Positions 1 through 4,208 of a DNA stretch of 64,000 nt are shown here, piece after piece. Each line of letters begins with the position of its first letter. Position 1 is the first letter of the stretch. The stretch is from Candidatus Methanoperedens sp. BLZ2 (GTDB lineage: Archaea > Halobacteriota > Methanosarcinia > Methanosarcinales > Methanoperedenaceae): positions 62,001-126,000 of the forward strand of contig NZ_NTMG01000068.1 in the NCBI RefSeq assembly GCF_002487355.1. Direction: 5' to 3'. Under the pieces are notes generated by a model that ran no database searches, was not told the origin of the DNA, and saw nothing but the letters and a program-made list of their open reading frames with translations. The position numbers and the translations under genes were made by a program.

Positions 1-411
1 TCCTCATTCCTCCTGTCCTGCGCCCAATATTTAATATACTTATATTATTTAATTATCGGCGCCGATATTTCAGCATCAATGAATGGATTTGAAAATTTGG
101 AACCGCAGATGGACGCCGATAAACGCAGATGTGAAATCCATTTGCGGCGCATGAACACATAATCAAAGGACGCCACAGCTTTGCGCTCTTTGTGAGCTTT
201 GCGGTGAATATCGCATAAAACAACGCAAAGAACAGCCGCATTTTAACACCATATTTACCTGCAAATTAGCCGTTTCAAGTCAACCGCAAATTTTCGAACA
301 GAGGGGGCGCAGAAATCGGCGGTGGGAGATTTGGAGATGATGAAATAATATGGGAGCAATATGTAGAAAGCGCAGATTTATCTTAAATAGAATTAAATGA
401 GTAGATAAACA
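1..411. other. Intergenic region without a recognisable gene
   Basis: No credible coding frame is seen before the ATG at 412. The stretch holds a CGCAGAT-type repeat (103-130) and, around 180-235, a sequence of the kind CTTTGTGAGCTTTGCGGTGAA that resembles interspersed intergenic repeats of many prokaryotes. The 62-codon minus-strand frame at 53-241 covers this repeat and has no protein-like character. Confidence 0.5.
103..130. repeat. Interspersed CGCAGAT repeat, copy 1
   Basis: A 28-base block beginning CCGCAGATGGACG and ending AAACGCAGAT matches the block at 16129-16156 with two mismatches by eye. It is itself built from the 7-mer CGCAGAT (or CCGAT) spaced by 2-4 bases. It lies outside genes in both places. 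A weaker relative is near 46954. Function unknown. Confidence 0.55.
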
Positions 412-1269
412 ATGACCAAATTAAAACCAAGCGTGATAGATGCTTTGTCGGATATGATTTGTGGAGATAATCCTCCTAAGAATTTTCCATACCGTTCAAC
501 ATCTTTTTTGACCTCGTTTTTTAGAGGAATCGACTTGGATTATCGCCATGAAGCTCCTTGGAGGAGTAAGTGGGTTGCTAACGTTTTAGAAGAGTTAAAT
601 AAGAAACCGAGTTTAGAGCCTGATTTCCCTTCGCCGGAATTAAAAAGAGTTATAGAACACCTTTTAGATCCAACTAATTTTATAGATTTAAATCACGAAC
701 GAGCAATAGAACAAGTAAATCAACTTCTCAAATCACAAAATCTAATTGTTGAAAAAGATAAAAATACAGGTAATGTAACTCTTTGTAAAGTTATAGATGG
801 TTTTATTTCGACCTCAATTAATATAAAAGAAGTGAAAACAGTAATTACCTTTTCACCTTCAGTATTCACTATTCCCAAAAGGTCTGTTGTAAATAATTTA
901 GTATCTGTTATGATGCCATTTGATATGAAATTTGATAAGGTCCTTGAAACTATAAAGGCAGCTTGTTCTAATGTTAATATGCAATGCAGTCGGGTAGATG
1001 ACCTTTGGAATAATAGCACTATAATTCAAGATATTTTTGAGTTAATTTATTGTTCTTCAATTGTTATTGTAGATTTTTCAGGAAAAAATTCAAATGTGTT
1101 TTATGAGGCTGGTATTGCTCATACTTTAGGGAAAAATGTGATTCCAATAACTCAAAATATTGAGGATATTCCTTTTGACCTTCGACATCATAGAGTTTTA
1201 AAATATTTAAAAAATAGTGAAGGGCTACAAGAATTAAAACAAGGTATAGAAAATAGATTGAATATCTGA
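412..1269 (+). CDS. AbiJ-NTD-like/TIR-like (deoxyribosyltransferase-fold) putative defence effector
   Basis: The C-terminal half (about residues 163-270) carries the pattern of the TIR-like/nucleoside 2-deoxyribosyltransferase-like domain: a first strand ending VSVMMPF, a conserved DI...I..S..VIVDFSG segment, then NVFYEAGIAH with the candidate catalytic Glu near residue 231, then VIPITQ and PFDLRHHR. In related proteins this fold binds or cleaves nucleotides such as NAD, often as an abortive-infection effector. The N-terminal part (residues 25-115, with RSTSFLTSFFRGI..DYRHE and a following VLEELN) resembles AbiJ N-terminal sensor-type domains; that match is from memory of the family pattern. 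No signal peptide or membrane segment is seen, so it should be cytosolic. The ATG at 412 gives the full frame. An AlbA_2 gene follows after 34 bases in the same direction, suggesting one transcript. The DNA is clearly more AT-rich than the neighbouring housekeeping genes, consistent with transfer. The function as defence is inference. Confidence 0.7.
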   Translation: MTKLKPSVIDALSDMICGDNPPKNFPYRSTSFLTSFFRGIDLDYRHEAPWRSKWVANVLEELNKKPSLEPDFPSPELKRVIEHLLDPTNFIDLNHERAIEQVNQLLKSQNLIVEKDKNTGNVTLCKVIDGFISTSINIKEVKTVITFSPSVFTIPKRSVVNNLVSVMMPFDMKFDKVLETIKAACSNVNMQCSRVDDLWNNSTIIQDIFELIYCSSIVIVDFSGKNSNVFYEAGIAHTLGKNVIPITQNIEDIPFDLRHHRVLKYLKNSEGLQELKQGIENRLNI

Positions 1270-1303
1270 AACAGTCAGGCAAACAATAACAAATGGTGTA
1301 TGT

Positions 1304-2605
1304 ATGAGAGACGATAATACTTTATCCCCTGCTGATCAACAAATCAGAGATGAAATAAAAAACTTAATAAAAAAACGAGAAGGAACTTACAAATCAGCTT
1401 TGGTTATAACAGCACTTTCTAAAGCTCAAGATTCTTGGAAAAATGCATTTACTAAAATTATTCTATCAAATACAGATGAAAAAATCTCCGAAAAATTAGA
1501 ATATGATGGCTTTATTTTAAACAAGATCAGTATTACTATTGATGATTTTTTAATTATGCTTGATGATTTTATATTGAGAGGAGATTTAAAAATCAACGAC
1601 TGCCCTGATGTAAAAGCTACTGGAACTTTTGAATACGATACATATTGGCGCTATCGTTCCAGCAACGATGATGCGTATAAGAATGATTGGCCTATGCATA
1701 ATTATATTTTCAGATTAGATGATAATGAACGGGGCCATCCACCGAGTGAACCACTTGTTAGCCCCCAGTATCCTCACTTCCCATACGCTCAAAAAGCAAT
1801 AAAGTATTATTTTGGTTTTGATTTAGAAAATCATCCAAGCAGCATTTTTATTTTTATTCCAAATTATCAACTCAAGATTGACAAACTTACAATAGGCTCA
1901 AATCATCTGAATTTGGAAATAACTGTTAACGGTGTGCATCAAGGAGAGCTTGTCGGAAAACTGTACTATGAAAAGGGAGAGCATATAAAAATCGAAGATT
2001 TTCATATTGATAAAAATCCCAAGAGTATCCATATTGATTTCATACCTGATATGATAAGCGTTTATTTATTAAGGAACGATGGAGAAATTCTAGATTTCAG
2101 AAGAATTCATTTAAATTGGCCAAGTTCACCCTCAAAAGATGTAGTAATCGATATTAAAGAAAGTGATATTCTTACGATGCTAAAACAAGGTGAAAATCAG
2201 TATGTTGAGTTCAAGAGAGAACTGAATAATAAAGATAAAGAAGAGTTTGCAGAAACAGTTGTAGCCTTTGCCAATGGTAAAGGAGGAACTATACTCATTG
2301 GTGTGGATGATAAGTCAAACATTGTAGGATGTGACCAGGATAAAATTGAAGAAGCAATAGTAAGTAGTCTCAAAAGTCGATGTGACCCGTTTATTGCGCC
2401 AGATATAAAAAAGGTTACAACTGATGATGGATCGATAATTGTCATTAGAATTAATGAGGGAACGAATAAGCCCTATACACTAAGGGATAAAGGCATCTAT
2501 GTTAGAAGTGGCTCTACAGATAGAATTGCGAGTAGAATTGAATTGGATGAATTTTATGATCAAAAGAAAAAATATGGAATAGACACAGTTCGTGGTTATC
2601 TATAA
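1304..2605 (+). CDS. Schlafen AlbA_2-domain protein, ATP-binding-like, putative defence partner
   Basis: Residues about 285-425 form a recognisable AlbA_2 (Schlafen-type, divergent AAA-4) domain: an early GENQYVEFKRE segment, then VAFANGKGGTILIGVDD, then a late KGIYVRSGSTDRIASR segment. AlbA_2 proteins bind nucleic acid or nucleotides, and Schlafen relatives cut tRNA/rRNA in antiviral defence. The first 280 residues are not recognised; they are mixed alpha/beta with no membrane segment. The gene starts 34 bases after the TIR-like gene and shares its AT-rich composition, so the two probably form one operon and one functional unit. Its 3' end abuts a decayed minus-strand helicase fragment. It could instead be a stand-alone transcriptional regulator, as some AlbA_2 proteins are. 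Domain call is firm, function inferred. Confidence 0.75.
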   Translation: MRDDNTLSPADQQIRDEIKNLIKKREGTYKSALVITALSKAQDSWKNAFTKIILSNTDEKISEKLEYDGFILNKISITIDDFLIMLDDFILRGDLKINDCPDVKATGTFEYDTYWRYRSSNDDAYKNDWPMHNYIFRLDDNERGHPPSEPLVSPQYPHFPYAQKAIKYYFGFDLENHPSSIFIFIPNYQLKIDKLTIGSNHLNLEITVNGVHQGELVGKLYYEKGEHIKIEDFHIDKNPKSIHIDFIPDMISVYLLRNDGEILDFRRIHLNWPSSPSKDVVIDIKESDILTMLKQGENQYVEFKRELNNKDKEEFAETVVAFANGKGGTILIGVDDKSNIVGCDQDKIEEAIVSSLKSRCDPFIAPDIKKVTTDDGSIIVIRINEGTNKPYTLRDKGIYVRSGSTDRIASRIELDEFYDQKKKYGIDTVRGYL

Positions 2606-3030
2606 AATGCTTCACATCCTCCCCCCACTCCCAGAACCTCTTCGTCTTCGCATAATTCCTCTCAACGATCAAAATATCCCTGTAGAACTCCTCCTTATCC
2701 TCCCTCAGTTCCCGATAACCCTTGAAGCAATCTCATGCCCATACCCCTTGAGGCAAGCGCAATCGCAACAGTCTTCTCGTGCAAGAGAATAAGGTTCATG
2801 TTCTTGAAAACCTGCGCCATTCTTTTTCTTTCCTCTTCTGATTTGTCCTACCTCTTCTTTTTCGCGATCTTATTTCCTCTTCTTCCCATGGCTTAAGCGC
2901 AGCCATAATCCTGCTTCCGCACAATGGACATTCCGGGCGCTCTGGCACGCTTTAGCGGAAAAATCACGCTTTTTACAACCCTTGTCAAGAGCCATTTCTT
3001 GCAGTTAATGCAAAAAATTATGACCTTGAT
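2606..3030 (-). pseudogene. Decayed 3' fragment of an Lhr-type (large helicase-related) ATP-dependent helicase
   Basis: Reading the minus strand in changing frames recovers the C-terminal tail typical of archaeal Lhr helicases: CINCKKW, then ERPECPLCGSRIMAALKPW followed by EEEE, then VFKNMNLILLHEKTVAIALA, then LREDKEEFYRDIL, then ERNYAKTKRFW. The order and spacing fit the family, but at least three frame changes and in-frame stops separate the pieces, and the roughly 800 N-terminal residues with the helicase motifs are absent. It is therefore a relic. It sits directly downstream of the AbiJ/TIR-AlbA_2 cassette, so arrival of that cassette may have broken the gene. Identification is from memory of Lhr C-termini. 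Confidence 0.7.
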
Positions 3031-3038
3031 AATATAAT

Positions 3039-4208
3039 TTAATTTTTCACAAACCTGCCCAGAAAAGGAGTCTTTAATTCAATGGCATTACCTGGACACA
3101 GTTCCTGACAGCAGTAACATCTGATACATTTCTTATGATCAAATGAAGGATAGTCTTCTTTTTTTGATATCGCACCAGAAGGGCAGTGTTCCATGCATAT
3201 CCAGCATTTTTTGCATTGTTGTCTTACCAGTTCAGGTTTTGCAACCAGCATACTGCGAAGGAAACGCATCAGACCCCTTGCACGGAAAAATGATGCAGTA
3301 CCCGAAGGAAGTTTGAAGTCCTCAATTTGCATGTCCTTCATATCCTCTCCAGATACATCGATATGGGAAATATCTCCAGTTCCCATGCCCTGTTCGTGTG
3401 CCAGGCGGGTGGAAGGTACCATGAACGGGTCTATACCGATCATCTTGCAGGCCACTGCATCAAGTGCCACAGGGTCACAACTTGCCAGAATTGCATTGAC
3501 CTGTCTTGGCGTGCCGTTGCTGGGTCCGTTCCCTTCCATACCAACAACTGCGTCCATTACTGTCAATTCAGGCCGCACTATGCCAAGTAGATCCACAAGC
3601 ATCTGGGAAAATGTTTCCGGGTCCTGGGCACGAAGATGCATTTTTGCTTTATTGAGACCTGTTACACAGCCGAAATTATTTTTCACCCCTCCGGTAAATA
3701 ATGTCAGCCCGTGGGTCTTGAGTTTTGGTAAAGATATCAGCACATCAGCTTCCTGGACCTGCTTTGATAAAATGAAGCTCTTGAATATGCGGCCACCGGG
3801 ATTTTTTACCTCGATAGACTCTGCACTGAGATGCAGGATCCGGGCTCCTTCTTCCTCGCATACTTTCATAATACCGGTATTACGACATGCTGCAATGTAT
3901 CTTTTATAATTTGGCCCCCCCTCATAGCCGCTGCAATCGCCAACCTGGGGGATGCCCCCGGCTGCTTTAACCTGACGTATCATAGCCCGAACAATCGCCG
4001 GATGGGTGGTAACTGCTTTTTCAGGAACATCACCTGTCAGGAGATTTATCTTCAGAAGAACACGATCATCGGGTTTAACATAGCTTTTAATTCCGCCAAT
4101 AAGCTCCAGTGCCTTTTCAACCGCAGCATCGATATTTGATTGACCATAGGTCTGGCACCTTACAAGCGATACTGTAGAAAGATTACTGCTCTCAGTTTGC
4201 TTTTCCAT
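3039..4208 (-). CDS. DUF362 domain protein with C-terminal two-[4Fe-4S] ferredoxin module
   Basis: Residues about 25-280 match the DUF362 family (GDCSGYEGGPNYKRY, LPKLKTHGLTLFTGGVKN, DAVVGMEGNGPSNG). The C-terminal 60 residues hold two ferredoxin motifs, CKKCWICMEHCP and CIRCYCCQELCP, each able to hold a [4Fe-4S] cluster. DUF362 ferredoxins are common in methanogens and anaerobes; a defined substrate is not known for most, and an electron-transfer or reductase role is inferred. There is no signal peptide or membrane helix. At 389 residues it has the usual length for the fused form. It is divergent from the F390 synthetase-like gene across a 186-base gap, which probably holds both promoters. 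Confidence 0.88.
   Translation of the reverse strand: MEKQTESSNLSTVSLVRCQTYGQSNIDAAVEKALELIGGIKSYVKPDDRVLLKINLLTGDVPEKAVTTHPAIVRAMIRQVKAAGGIPQVGDCSGYEGGPNYKRYIAACRNTGIMKVCEEEGARILHLSAESIEVKNPGGRIFKSFILSKQVQEADVLISLPKLKTHGLTLFTGGVKNNFGCVTGLNKAKMHLRAQDPETFSQMLVDLLGIVRPELTVMDAVVGMEGNGPSNGTPRQVNAILASCDPVALDAVACKMIGIDPFMVPSTRLAHEQGMGTGDISHIDVSGEDMKDMQIEDFKLPSGTASFFRARGLMRFLRSMLVAKPELVRQQCKKCWICMEHCPSGAISKKEDYPSFDHKKCIRCYCCQELCPGNAIELKTPFLGRFVKN

Follow-up and report, generated by a model that had tools for sequence, protein, structure and literature searches.

Two genes in Candidatus Methanoperedens sp. BLZ2, one for a TIR-like protein and one for a Schlafen protein, lie on the same strand with only 34 bases between them. 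Do they form one defense system, or have two separate genes come to stand side by side? The window analyzed (64,000 nucleotides, G000:C43:62001-126000) lies within a 3.7 Mb genome. The original prediction described a two-gene defense cassette; the TIR-like fold, the Schlafen domain, the low G+C content, the broken helicase gene next door and the defense-type context of relatives all hold up, whereas a single conserved two-gene system does not. The reading favored here, as a probable but by no means settled one, is that gene 1 encodes a stand-alone TIR-like effector of the abortive-infection type, that gene 2 encodes a separate Schlafen-type nuclease and that the two were joined at a hotspot for accessory genes. 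The genes, their domains, the fold, the motifs and the differing segment downstream of gene 1 in a relative are observed; sensing, substrates, toxicity, a role in defense, joint transcription and the independence of the two genes are inferences from domains.

The locus

The features of the locus are as follows.

412-1269, + strand: gene 1, open reading frame for a TIR/NDT-like protein of 285 aa
412-801, + strand: gene 1, N-terminal domain (roughly residues 1-130), largely helical in an AlphaFold model, presumed sensor
883-1269, + strand: C-terminal TIR/NDT-like domain of gene 1 (residues 158-285), from an AlphaFold model, fold matches and PADLOC
1105-1107, + strand: codon of Glu232, presumed catalytic residue (invariant in alignments; role by analogy)
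1270-1303, + strand: intergenic gap of 34 bases, spanned by the match to locus L076, which extends 4 bases into gene 2
1304-2605, + strand: gene 2, open reading frame for a protein of 433 aa with a C-terminal Schlafen AlbA_2 domain (Pfam)
1304-2170, + strand: N-terminal region of gene 2 (residues 1-289), unrecognized
2192-2527, + strand: AlbA_2 domain of gene 2 (residues 297-408) with E297, E302, K304 and D335-D336 (Pfam, alignment with SLFN14)
about 2624-3028, - strand: remains of the 3' end of an Lhr-like helicase gene, decayed and convergent with the two genes (DNA identity to L076)

The two reading frames, both on the + strand, and their spacing are as originally predicted, and the motifs MMPF and NVFYEAGIAH are present in gene 1. 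The pair was also said to be AT-rich against its neighbors, which is borne out: the G+C content of 412-2605 is 32.2%, against 41.1% for the whole window, and is lower than that of all 296 other segments of the same size sampled from position 2700 on. A TATA-like element upstream of gene 1 is also kept in L076; it was rejected as a promoter signal because the loose pattern occurs 294 times in the window, with 289 expected, which is no excess over chance. A scan for bacterial-type promoters and terminators was uninformative, the models being bacterial and the host archaeal, and an Rfam scan of the window gave no match.

The counterpart locus in Ca. Methanoperedens SR-VP

The closest comparison is with Ca. 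Methanoperedens SR-VP (L076). Window positions 331-1307 correspond to L076 267-1244 at 90.1% DNA identity, and window positions 2624-2951 and 2972-3028 correspond to L076 1464-1794 and 1796-1852 at 77-79% identity. Gene 1 and the helicase end are common to both loci, and the piece between them is what differs: the window has gene 2 (1308-2623), and L076 has 219 bases of remnants in which two proteins are represented by their ends, one MazE-like (34 aa, 65%) and one MazF-like (25 aa, 68%). The MazE-like (antitoxin) name is given by position only, since the full-length relative in L227 has no Pfam match. The L076 contig ends 348 bases before gene 1, and the comparison thus covers the downstream side. 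Gene 1 therefore occurs without gene 2 in its closest relative, with the remains of another module in gene 2's place, which argues for a stand-alone gene 1 and makes the tight spacing of two defense-type genes weak evidence for one system.

Gene 1 is 88% identical to its L076 counterpart and stops 7 residues earlier through a 1-base difference. The dN/dS between the two is about 0.20 over 284 codons (no significance test applied), which is in keeping with a functional effector. In L076, gene 1 faces an intact helicase gene with DEAD, Helicase_C, WH_Lhr and DEAD_assoc domains (Pfam), whereas the copy in the window, lying directly after gene 2 as the broken helicase gene of the original prediction, is fragmentary, each of the three frames being interrupted by stops. 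Another genome of the window's genus (G406) has a helicase 100% identical to that of L076 and, beside it, a gene 1 at 88%. An intact Lhr-like helicase gene is also found on the window's own contig (G000:C43:25871-28699). An origin of the fragment in another lineage was rejected because its last 165 bases are nearest, at 88.3%, to the intact gene of its own genome.

The decay raises the question of whether genes 1 and 2 are leftover passengers of a crumbling hotspot with no present function. The broken helicase fragment at their flank, the nearby Bro-N and DDE_5 genes beyond the window's edge and the loss of 7 residues from gene 1 fit this explanation. Conversely, both reading frames are open, the dN/dS of gene 1 is low and catalytic-type residues are kept in both genes, and this explanation is quite improbable.

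Several observations were made on the helicase end itself. In four loci (L224, L225, L226 and L227, from G336, G399, G416 and G410, respectively), one or two further copies of the last 110-200 bases or so of the helicase gene lie downstream of it; in L227, the contig ends within the helicase gene. The first gap holds a MazF/PemK-type gene (116 aa) in all four, making it a recurring insertion spot; that of L224 matches PemK_toxin, and those of the other three are 83-97% identical to it. The gene directly after the helicase in G408 (L236) has a relative, judged by eye, in G416 (L226), where it lies behind the MazF-type unit and a second helicase end, as if this unit had entered at the 3' end of the gene. 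In the window, the insert has its right-hand border at about 3030, just behind a gene (3039-4208) that we take to be DUF362-like. When L264 and L270 are compared at this point, G396 carries other genes there, and in G413 a sequence that looks TnpB-like by eye interrupts the helicase fragment at a contig end. The DDE_5 transposase and Bro-N genes occupy G000:C43:58865-61895 (L073), just outside the window's left end.

The C-terminal domain of gene 1

AlphaFold was run for gene 1 on 37 sequences, and the best of five models has a mean pLDDT of 82.4 (67-71 for the other four). It has two domains, the N-terminal one helical and the C-terminal one of alpha/beta type. By block, pLDDT is 84-98 in the C-terminal domain, 55-88 up to residue 130 and below 50 for residues 129-148, and with a pTM of 0.50 it is uncertain how the domains sit relative to each other. 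In structure comparisons of the model, residues 160-285 match DNPH1 (Z 14.0, 2.5 Å over 116 residues), a TIR domain (Z 13.9), the SPARTA TIR (Z 13.7) and the SARM1 TIR (Z 13.2). The predicted C-terminal domain thus has the common alpha/beta fold of the TIR/NDT-like superfamily, and the model and its Z 13-14 matches support the TIR-like fold proposed earlier. Since rows within 1 Z are tied, the fold does not separate a nucleotide hydrolase from an NADase, and the substrate of gene 1 could belong to either class.

The glutamate of NVFYEAGIAH, E232, is invariant in the 37 aligned rows and in the 20 rows of a second alignment; by analogy and motif rather than superposition, it is presumably the catalytic Glu of TIR and NDT enzymes. 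The original prediction would have been refuted by a model lacking an NAD or nucleotide site; the ligand-free model has both the predicted fold and the invariant Glu. By analogy with TIR enzymes, gene 1 may hydrolyze NAD: its C-terminal domain would cleave a nucleotide, NAD being the likeliest, at the N-glycosidic bond, and this cleavage would stop the cell.

In PADLOC, gene 1 is matched by the model "Effector, TIR" at E 8e-8, as are all 20 members of its family that were scanned. No Pfam model, including TIR and Nuc_deoxyrib_tr, matches gene 1 over the cut-off; in relatives of gene 1, Nuc_deoxyrib_tr gives weak matches under the cut-off. A PDB search with gene 1 gave no phmmer match, and the single match of a profile search (E 0.15) was taken as chance. 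Gene 1 thus resembles TIR effectors (SPARTA TIR-APAZ, SARM1, PADLOC "Effector, TIR") in fold and PADLOC profile but differs from them in having no Pfam TIR match and, by eye, no Argonaute or nucleotide cyclase beside it. C-terminal domains of the gene 1 type are present on plasmids, on phages and in viral contigs.

The N-terminal domain of gene 1 and its relatives

The N-terminal domain of gene 1, which would sense infection, is common to eight proteins and has 26 invariant positions. It matches no Pfam model over the cut-off, and even at a threshold of E 1 none of the AbiJ_NTD models matched. The label "AbiJ-NTD-like" is accordingly not confirmed, although relatives of the C-terminal domain do carry AbiJ_NTD3 or AbiJ_NTD5. 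Profile comparisons did not show it to be an AbiJ NTD: against nine AbiJ_NTD3-type sequences P was 0.097, in a plausible register near residues 73-115, and against 12 AbiJ_NTD5-type sequences P was 0.071 over only 15 columns, which is no support. Given the plausible register, the N-terminus may, on sequence grounds, be a distant relation of AbiJ_NTD3. A search for the AbiJ_NTD3 family gave matches in 3 of 392 genomes, none over the cut-off.

Two relatives illustrate how the same C-terminal domain is joined to other N-termini. In L086 and similar proteins, the C-terminal domain is 58% identical to gene 1 residues 145-283 and follows an AbiJ_NTD5 domain (E 2.5e-26), in place of the unrecognized one of gene 1. 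L230, from the same genus (G416), is 76% identical to gene 1 residues 124-283; unlike gene 1, it has an AbiJ_NTD3 N-terminus (E 5.7e-52) and is followed by a nucleotidyltransferase/HepT pair. The N-terminus of L230 has matches in 34 plasmid records, and among the 30 listed, 14 are annotated as abortive infection family and 4 as having a Shedu SduA domain. The fold matches, the PADLOC matches in 20 of 20 family members and the joining of AbiJ_NTD3 or AbiJ_NTD5 to the same C-terminal domain all point to gene 1 as a stand-alone effector. If so, the N-terminal domains of this family of TIR-like effectors include another type in addition to AbiJ_NTD3 and AbiJ_NTD5.

Seven relatives match gene 1 over its full length (L076-L080, L064 and L065). 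Two of these that belong to other groups, L079 and L080 (titled Spirochaetes and Brevinematales), have the same neighbors as each other, without AlbA_2, which favors a gene 1 that stands alone.

Gene 2

Residues 297-408 of gene 2 match AlbA_2 (PF04326) at E 1.4e-29, with 103.4 bits against a gathering score of 25.3 (Pfam). E297, E302 and K304 align with E206, E211 and K213 of SLFN14, forming the motif ExxxxExK, and D335-D336 align with D248 and D249. The Schlafen domain of the original prediction is thus firmly matched, and its nuclease motif is kept. The best PDB profile match to this domain is 9ylu (CbCash), at E 1.1e-8. In PMC12215978, mutating the ExxxxExK residues is described as inactivating the RNase activity of SLFN14, and work on bacterial Schlafens acting against phages is cited in PMC12839542. 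By analogy, the AlbA_2 domain of gene 2 may cut RNA (tRNA or rRNA), and the N-terminal region would control this cutting.

That N-terminal region is as long and unrecognized as originally described: residues 1-289 are matched by nothing in Pfam, NCBIfam or PADLOC, nor in plasmids or phages. The sole PHROG matches to it, at E 0.04-0.06, touch residues 245-326, and a scan of viral contigs for gene 2 gave none that was confirmed. A single-sequence structure model of gene 2 had a pLDDT of 35 and was unusable. Although gene 2 shares the AlbA_2 domain and the ExxxxExK motif with SLFN14 and bacterial Schlafens, it differs from them in that its AlbA_2 domain is C-terminal, behind the unrecognized region of about 290 residues. 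It also differs from three scanned AlbA_2 proteins near other TIR-like genes, which are AlbA_2-HATPase_c_4 proteins, two of them with a wHTH.

Within its family, the N-terminal part of gene 2 was found in 1 of 34 genomes, its own. Across 392 genomes of the phylum, the listed matches include full-length relatives only in G098 and G307 (34% identical). In G098, the relative lies directly behind a gene for an Eco57I/TaqI_C methylase-restriction protein of 945 aa; in G307, the upstream gene is, by sequence, a shorter version of that restriction-modification (R-M)-type gene. The intact motif and the place of a relative behind an Eco57I/TaqI_C-type R-M gene suggest that gene 2 is a nuclease in its own right, and its N-terminal region would be a so far uncharacterized Schlafen part.

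Some AlbA_2 proteins may serve as regulators rather than nucleases. Gene 1 could be a DNPH1- or NDT-like enzyme of nucleotide salvage or house-cleaning and gene 2 a transcription regulator, neither of them acting in defense, a combination that we regard as distinctly unlikely. It draws on the presence of DNPH1 and NDT among the best fold matches of gene 1 and on the weak Nuc_deoxyrib_tr matches of relatives, and it is opposed by the attachment of AbiJ_NTD3 and AbiJ_NTD5 to the same C-terminal domain, by the spread of that domain on plasmids, phages and viral contigs, and by gene 2 itself, in which the nuclease motif is kept and no HTH is matched (Pfam).

Association of TIR-like and AlbA_2 genes

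A conserved cassette should recur, and this part of the original prediction fails. Loci with relatives of gene 1 numbered 121 (the best 80 of 330 in genome contigs and 41 in viral contigs; 3.6-13.2 kb, mean 10.7 kb, with flanks of at most 6 kb, less near contig ends). A three-sequence gene 2 HMM and BLAST gave no accepted gene 2 homologue in any of the 121; a 66-aa reading frame in L196 (E 0.007) was judged noise. With an AlbA_2 HMM of 32 sequences, one locus was matched, L124, where the AlbA_2 stretch also has a SIR2-domain gene and, by eye, a methylase-like gene. None of the seven full-length relatives of gene 1 has AlbA_2 in the sequence examined, which is short for L076, L077 and L078 (3.7-7.2 kb). 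Together with the lack of gene 2 in L076 and the single genome of the family that has its N-terminus, these counts led us to reject the pair as a conserved cassette, and the scarcity of AlbA_2 near relatives of gene 1 argues for a gene 1 that acts alone.

TIR-like and AlbA_2 domains do meet in other forms. The comparison covered 73 loci of the phylum with a TIR-like domain, taken from the matches of one search, two matches of a second and the window (3.1-18 kb, mean 7.6 kb), and AlbA_2 is found in five of them (the window, L061, L295, L279 and L307) and in none of 40 control regions. Without the window, 4 of 72 loci have AlbA_2, never more than 1.4 kb away, and the contrast with 0 of 40 controls gives a Fisher p of 0.17; enrichment was rejected on this value and because the two fusion loci represent one genus and nearly the same protein. 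L061:2599-3456 (G184) encodes a single fusion protein of 285 aa with AlbA_2 (E 4.2e-19) followed by a TIR-like domain, and L295:3476-4327 (G273, same genus) is nearly the same but interrupted by an in-frame TAG. L279 (G130) has the two in tandem, with reading frames 118 bases apart; here the TIR-like protein bears an S-layer domain, and HATPase_c_4 and a wHTH accompany AlbA_2 in the other. Seven further loci of the second search, outside the 73 (L197-L202 and L230), have no AlbA_2 in the sequence examined. The recurrence of the combination in other forms means that TIR-like and AlbA_2 proteins may be functionally linked, and the natural fusions are of interest in themselves.

Such a link would be realized in a two-component defense, in which the TIR-like enzyme makes a signal or acts jointly and the N-terminus of gene 2, on receiving the signal, turns the Schlafen nuclease on. 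The 34-base gap on one strand, the fusion in G184, its TAG-split copy in G273, the tandem in G130 and the four AlbA_2 loci among 72 are what this explanation would predict. It is nevertheless unlikely: the proportion is not significant and half of the four loci are the same fusion in one genus, the closest relative of gene 1 does without gene 2, the N-terminal part of gene 2 is confined to one genome of its family, and the partners in G130 are a different TIR-like protein, with its S-layer domain, and an AlbA_2 protein with HATPase_c_4 and wHTH. A two-step archaeal immune switch, in which the TIR-like enzyme would turn NAD into a signal and the N-terminus of gene 2 would bind it and release the Schlafen RNase, is a long shot; if true, it would be a Thoeris-like pathway with an RNase output, its two domain types being fused in L061, from another genome of the phylum. 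A search of the open-licence PMC literature found no paper on Schlafen/AlbA_2 with TIR against phages, an absence that is weak evidence.

On the account of a stand-alone effector and a separate nuclease, genes 1 and 2 would have been brought together at an accessory-gene site adjoining the helicase 3' end; they may be co-transcribed, and neither would need the other. Counting against this account, the 34-base gap, the shared strand and two open reading frames would also fit co-selection, TIR-like and AlbA_2 domains occur as a fusion (L061) and in tandem (L279), gene 1 is 7 residues shorter than in L076, its fold is common to NADase TIRs and nucleotide hydrolases, and some AlbA_2 proteins are possibly regulators.

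Defense-type context of relatives

A defense-type context is supported for the relatives of gene 1. In addition to the HepT pair behind L230, HsdM lies about 3.6 kb from the gene 1-type gene of L065, Mrr_cat adjoins that of L066, and a relative on an Agrobacterium plasmid lies near TIR, caspase and CHAT genes. Among the immediate neighbors of the 72 non-window TIR-like loci, 272 PADLOC models were matched, against 23 for controls (134 genes each, the control genes being a random draw from 254); this is only suggestive, since models overlap on one gene and the counts are of models, not genes. The plasmid region and the PADLOC counts are consistent with gene 1 as a stand-alone effector.

Genes similar by eye to the neighbors of L067 occur in L065 and L066, and those genes have no Pfam match. 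In L067 (G135), the gene 1 relative is interrupted by a transposase-like gene (by eye) and adjoins genes for a Cas1-type protein and a family-B polymerase, a casposon-like arrangement. Four alphaproteobacterial loci (L088, L095, L109 and L118) have two TIR-like genes in tandem that differ in their N-terminal parts.
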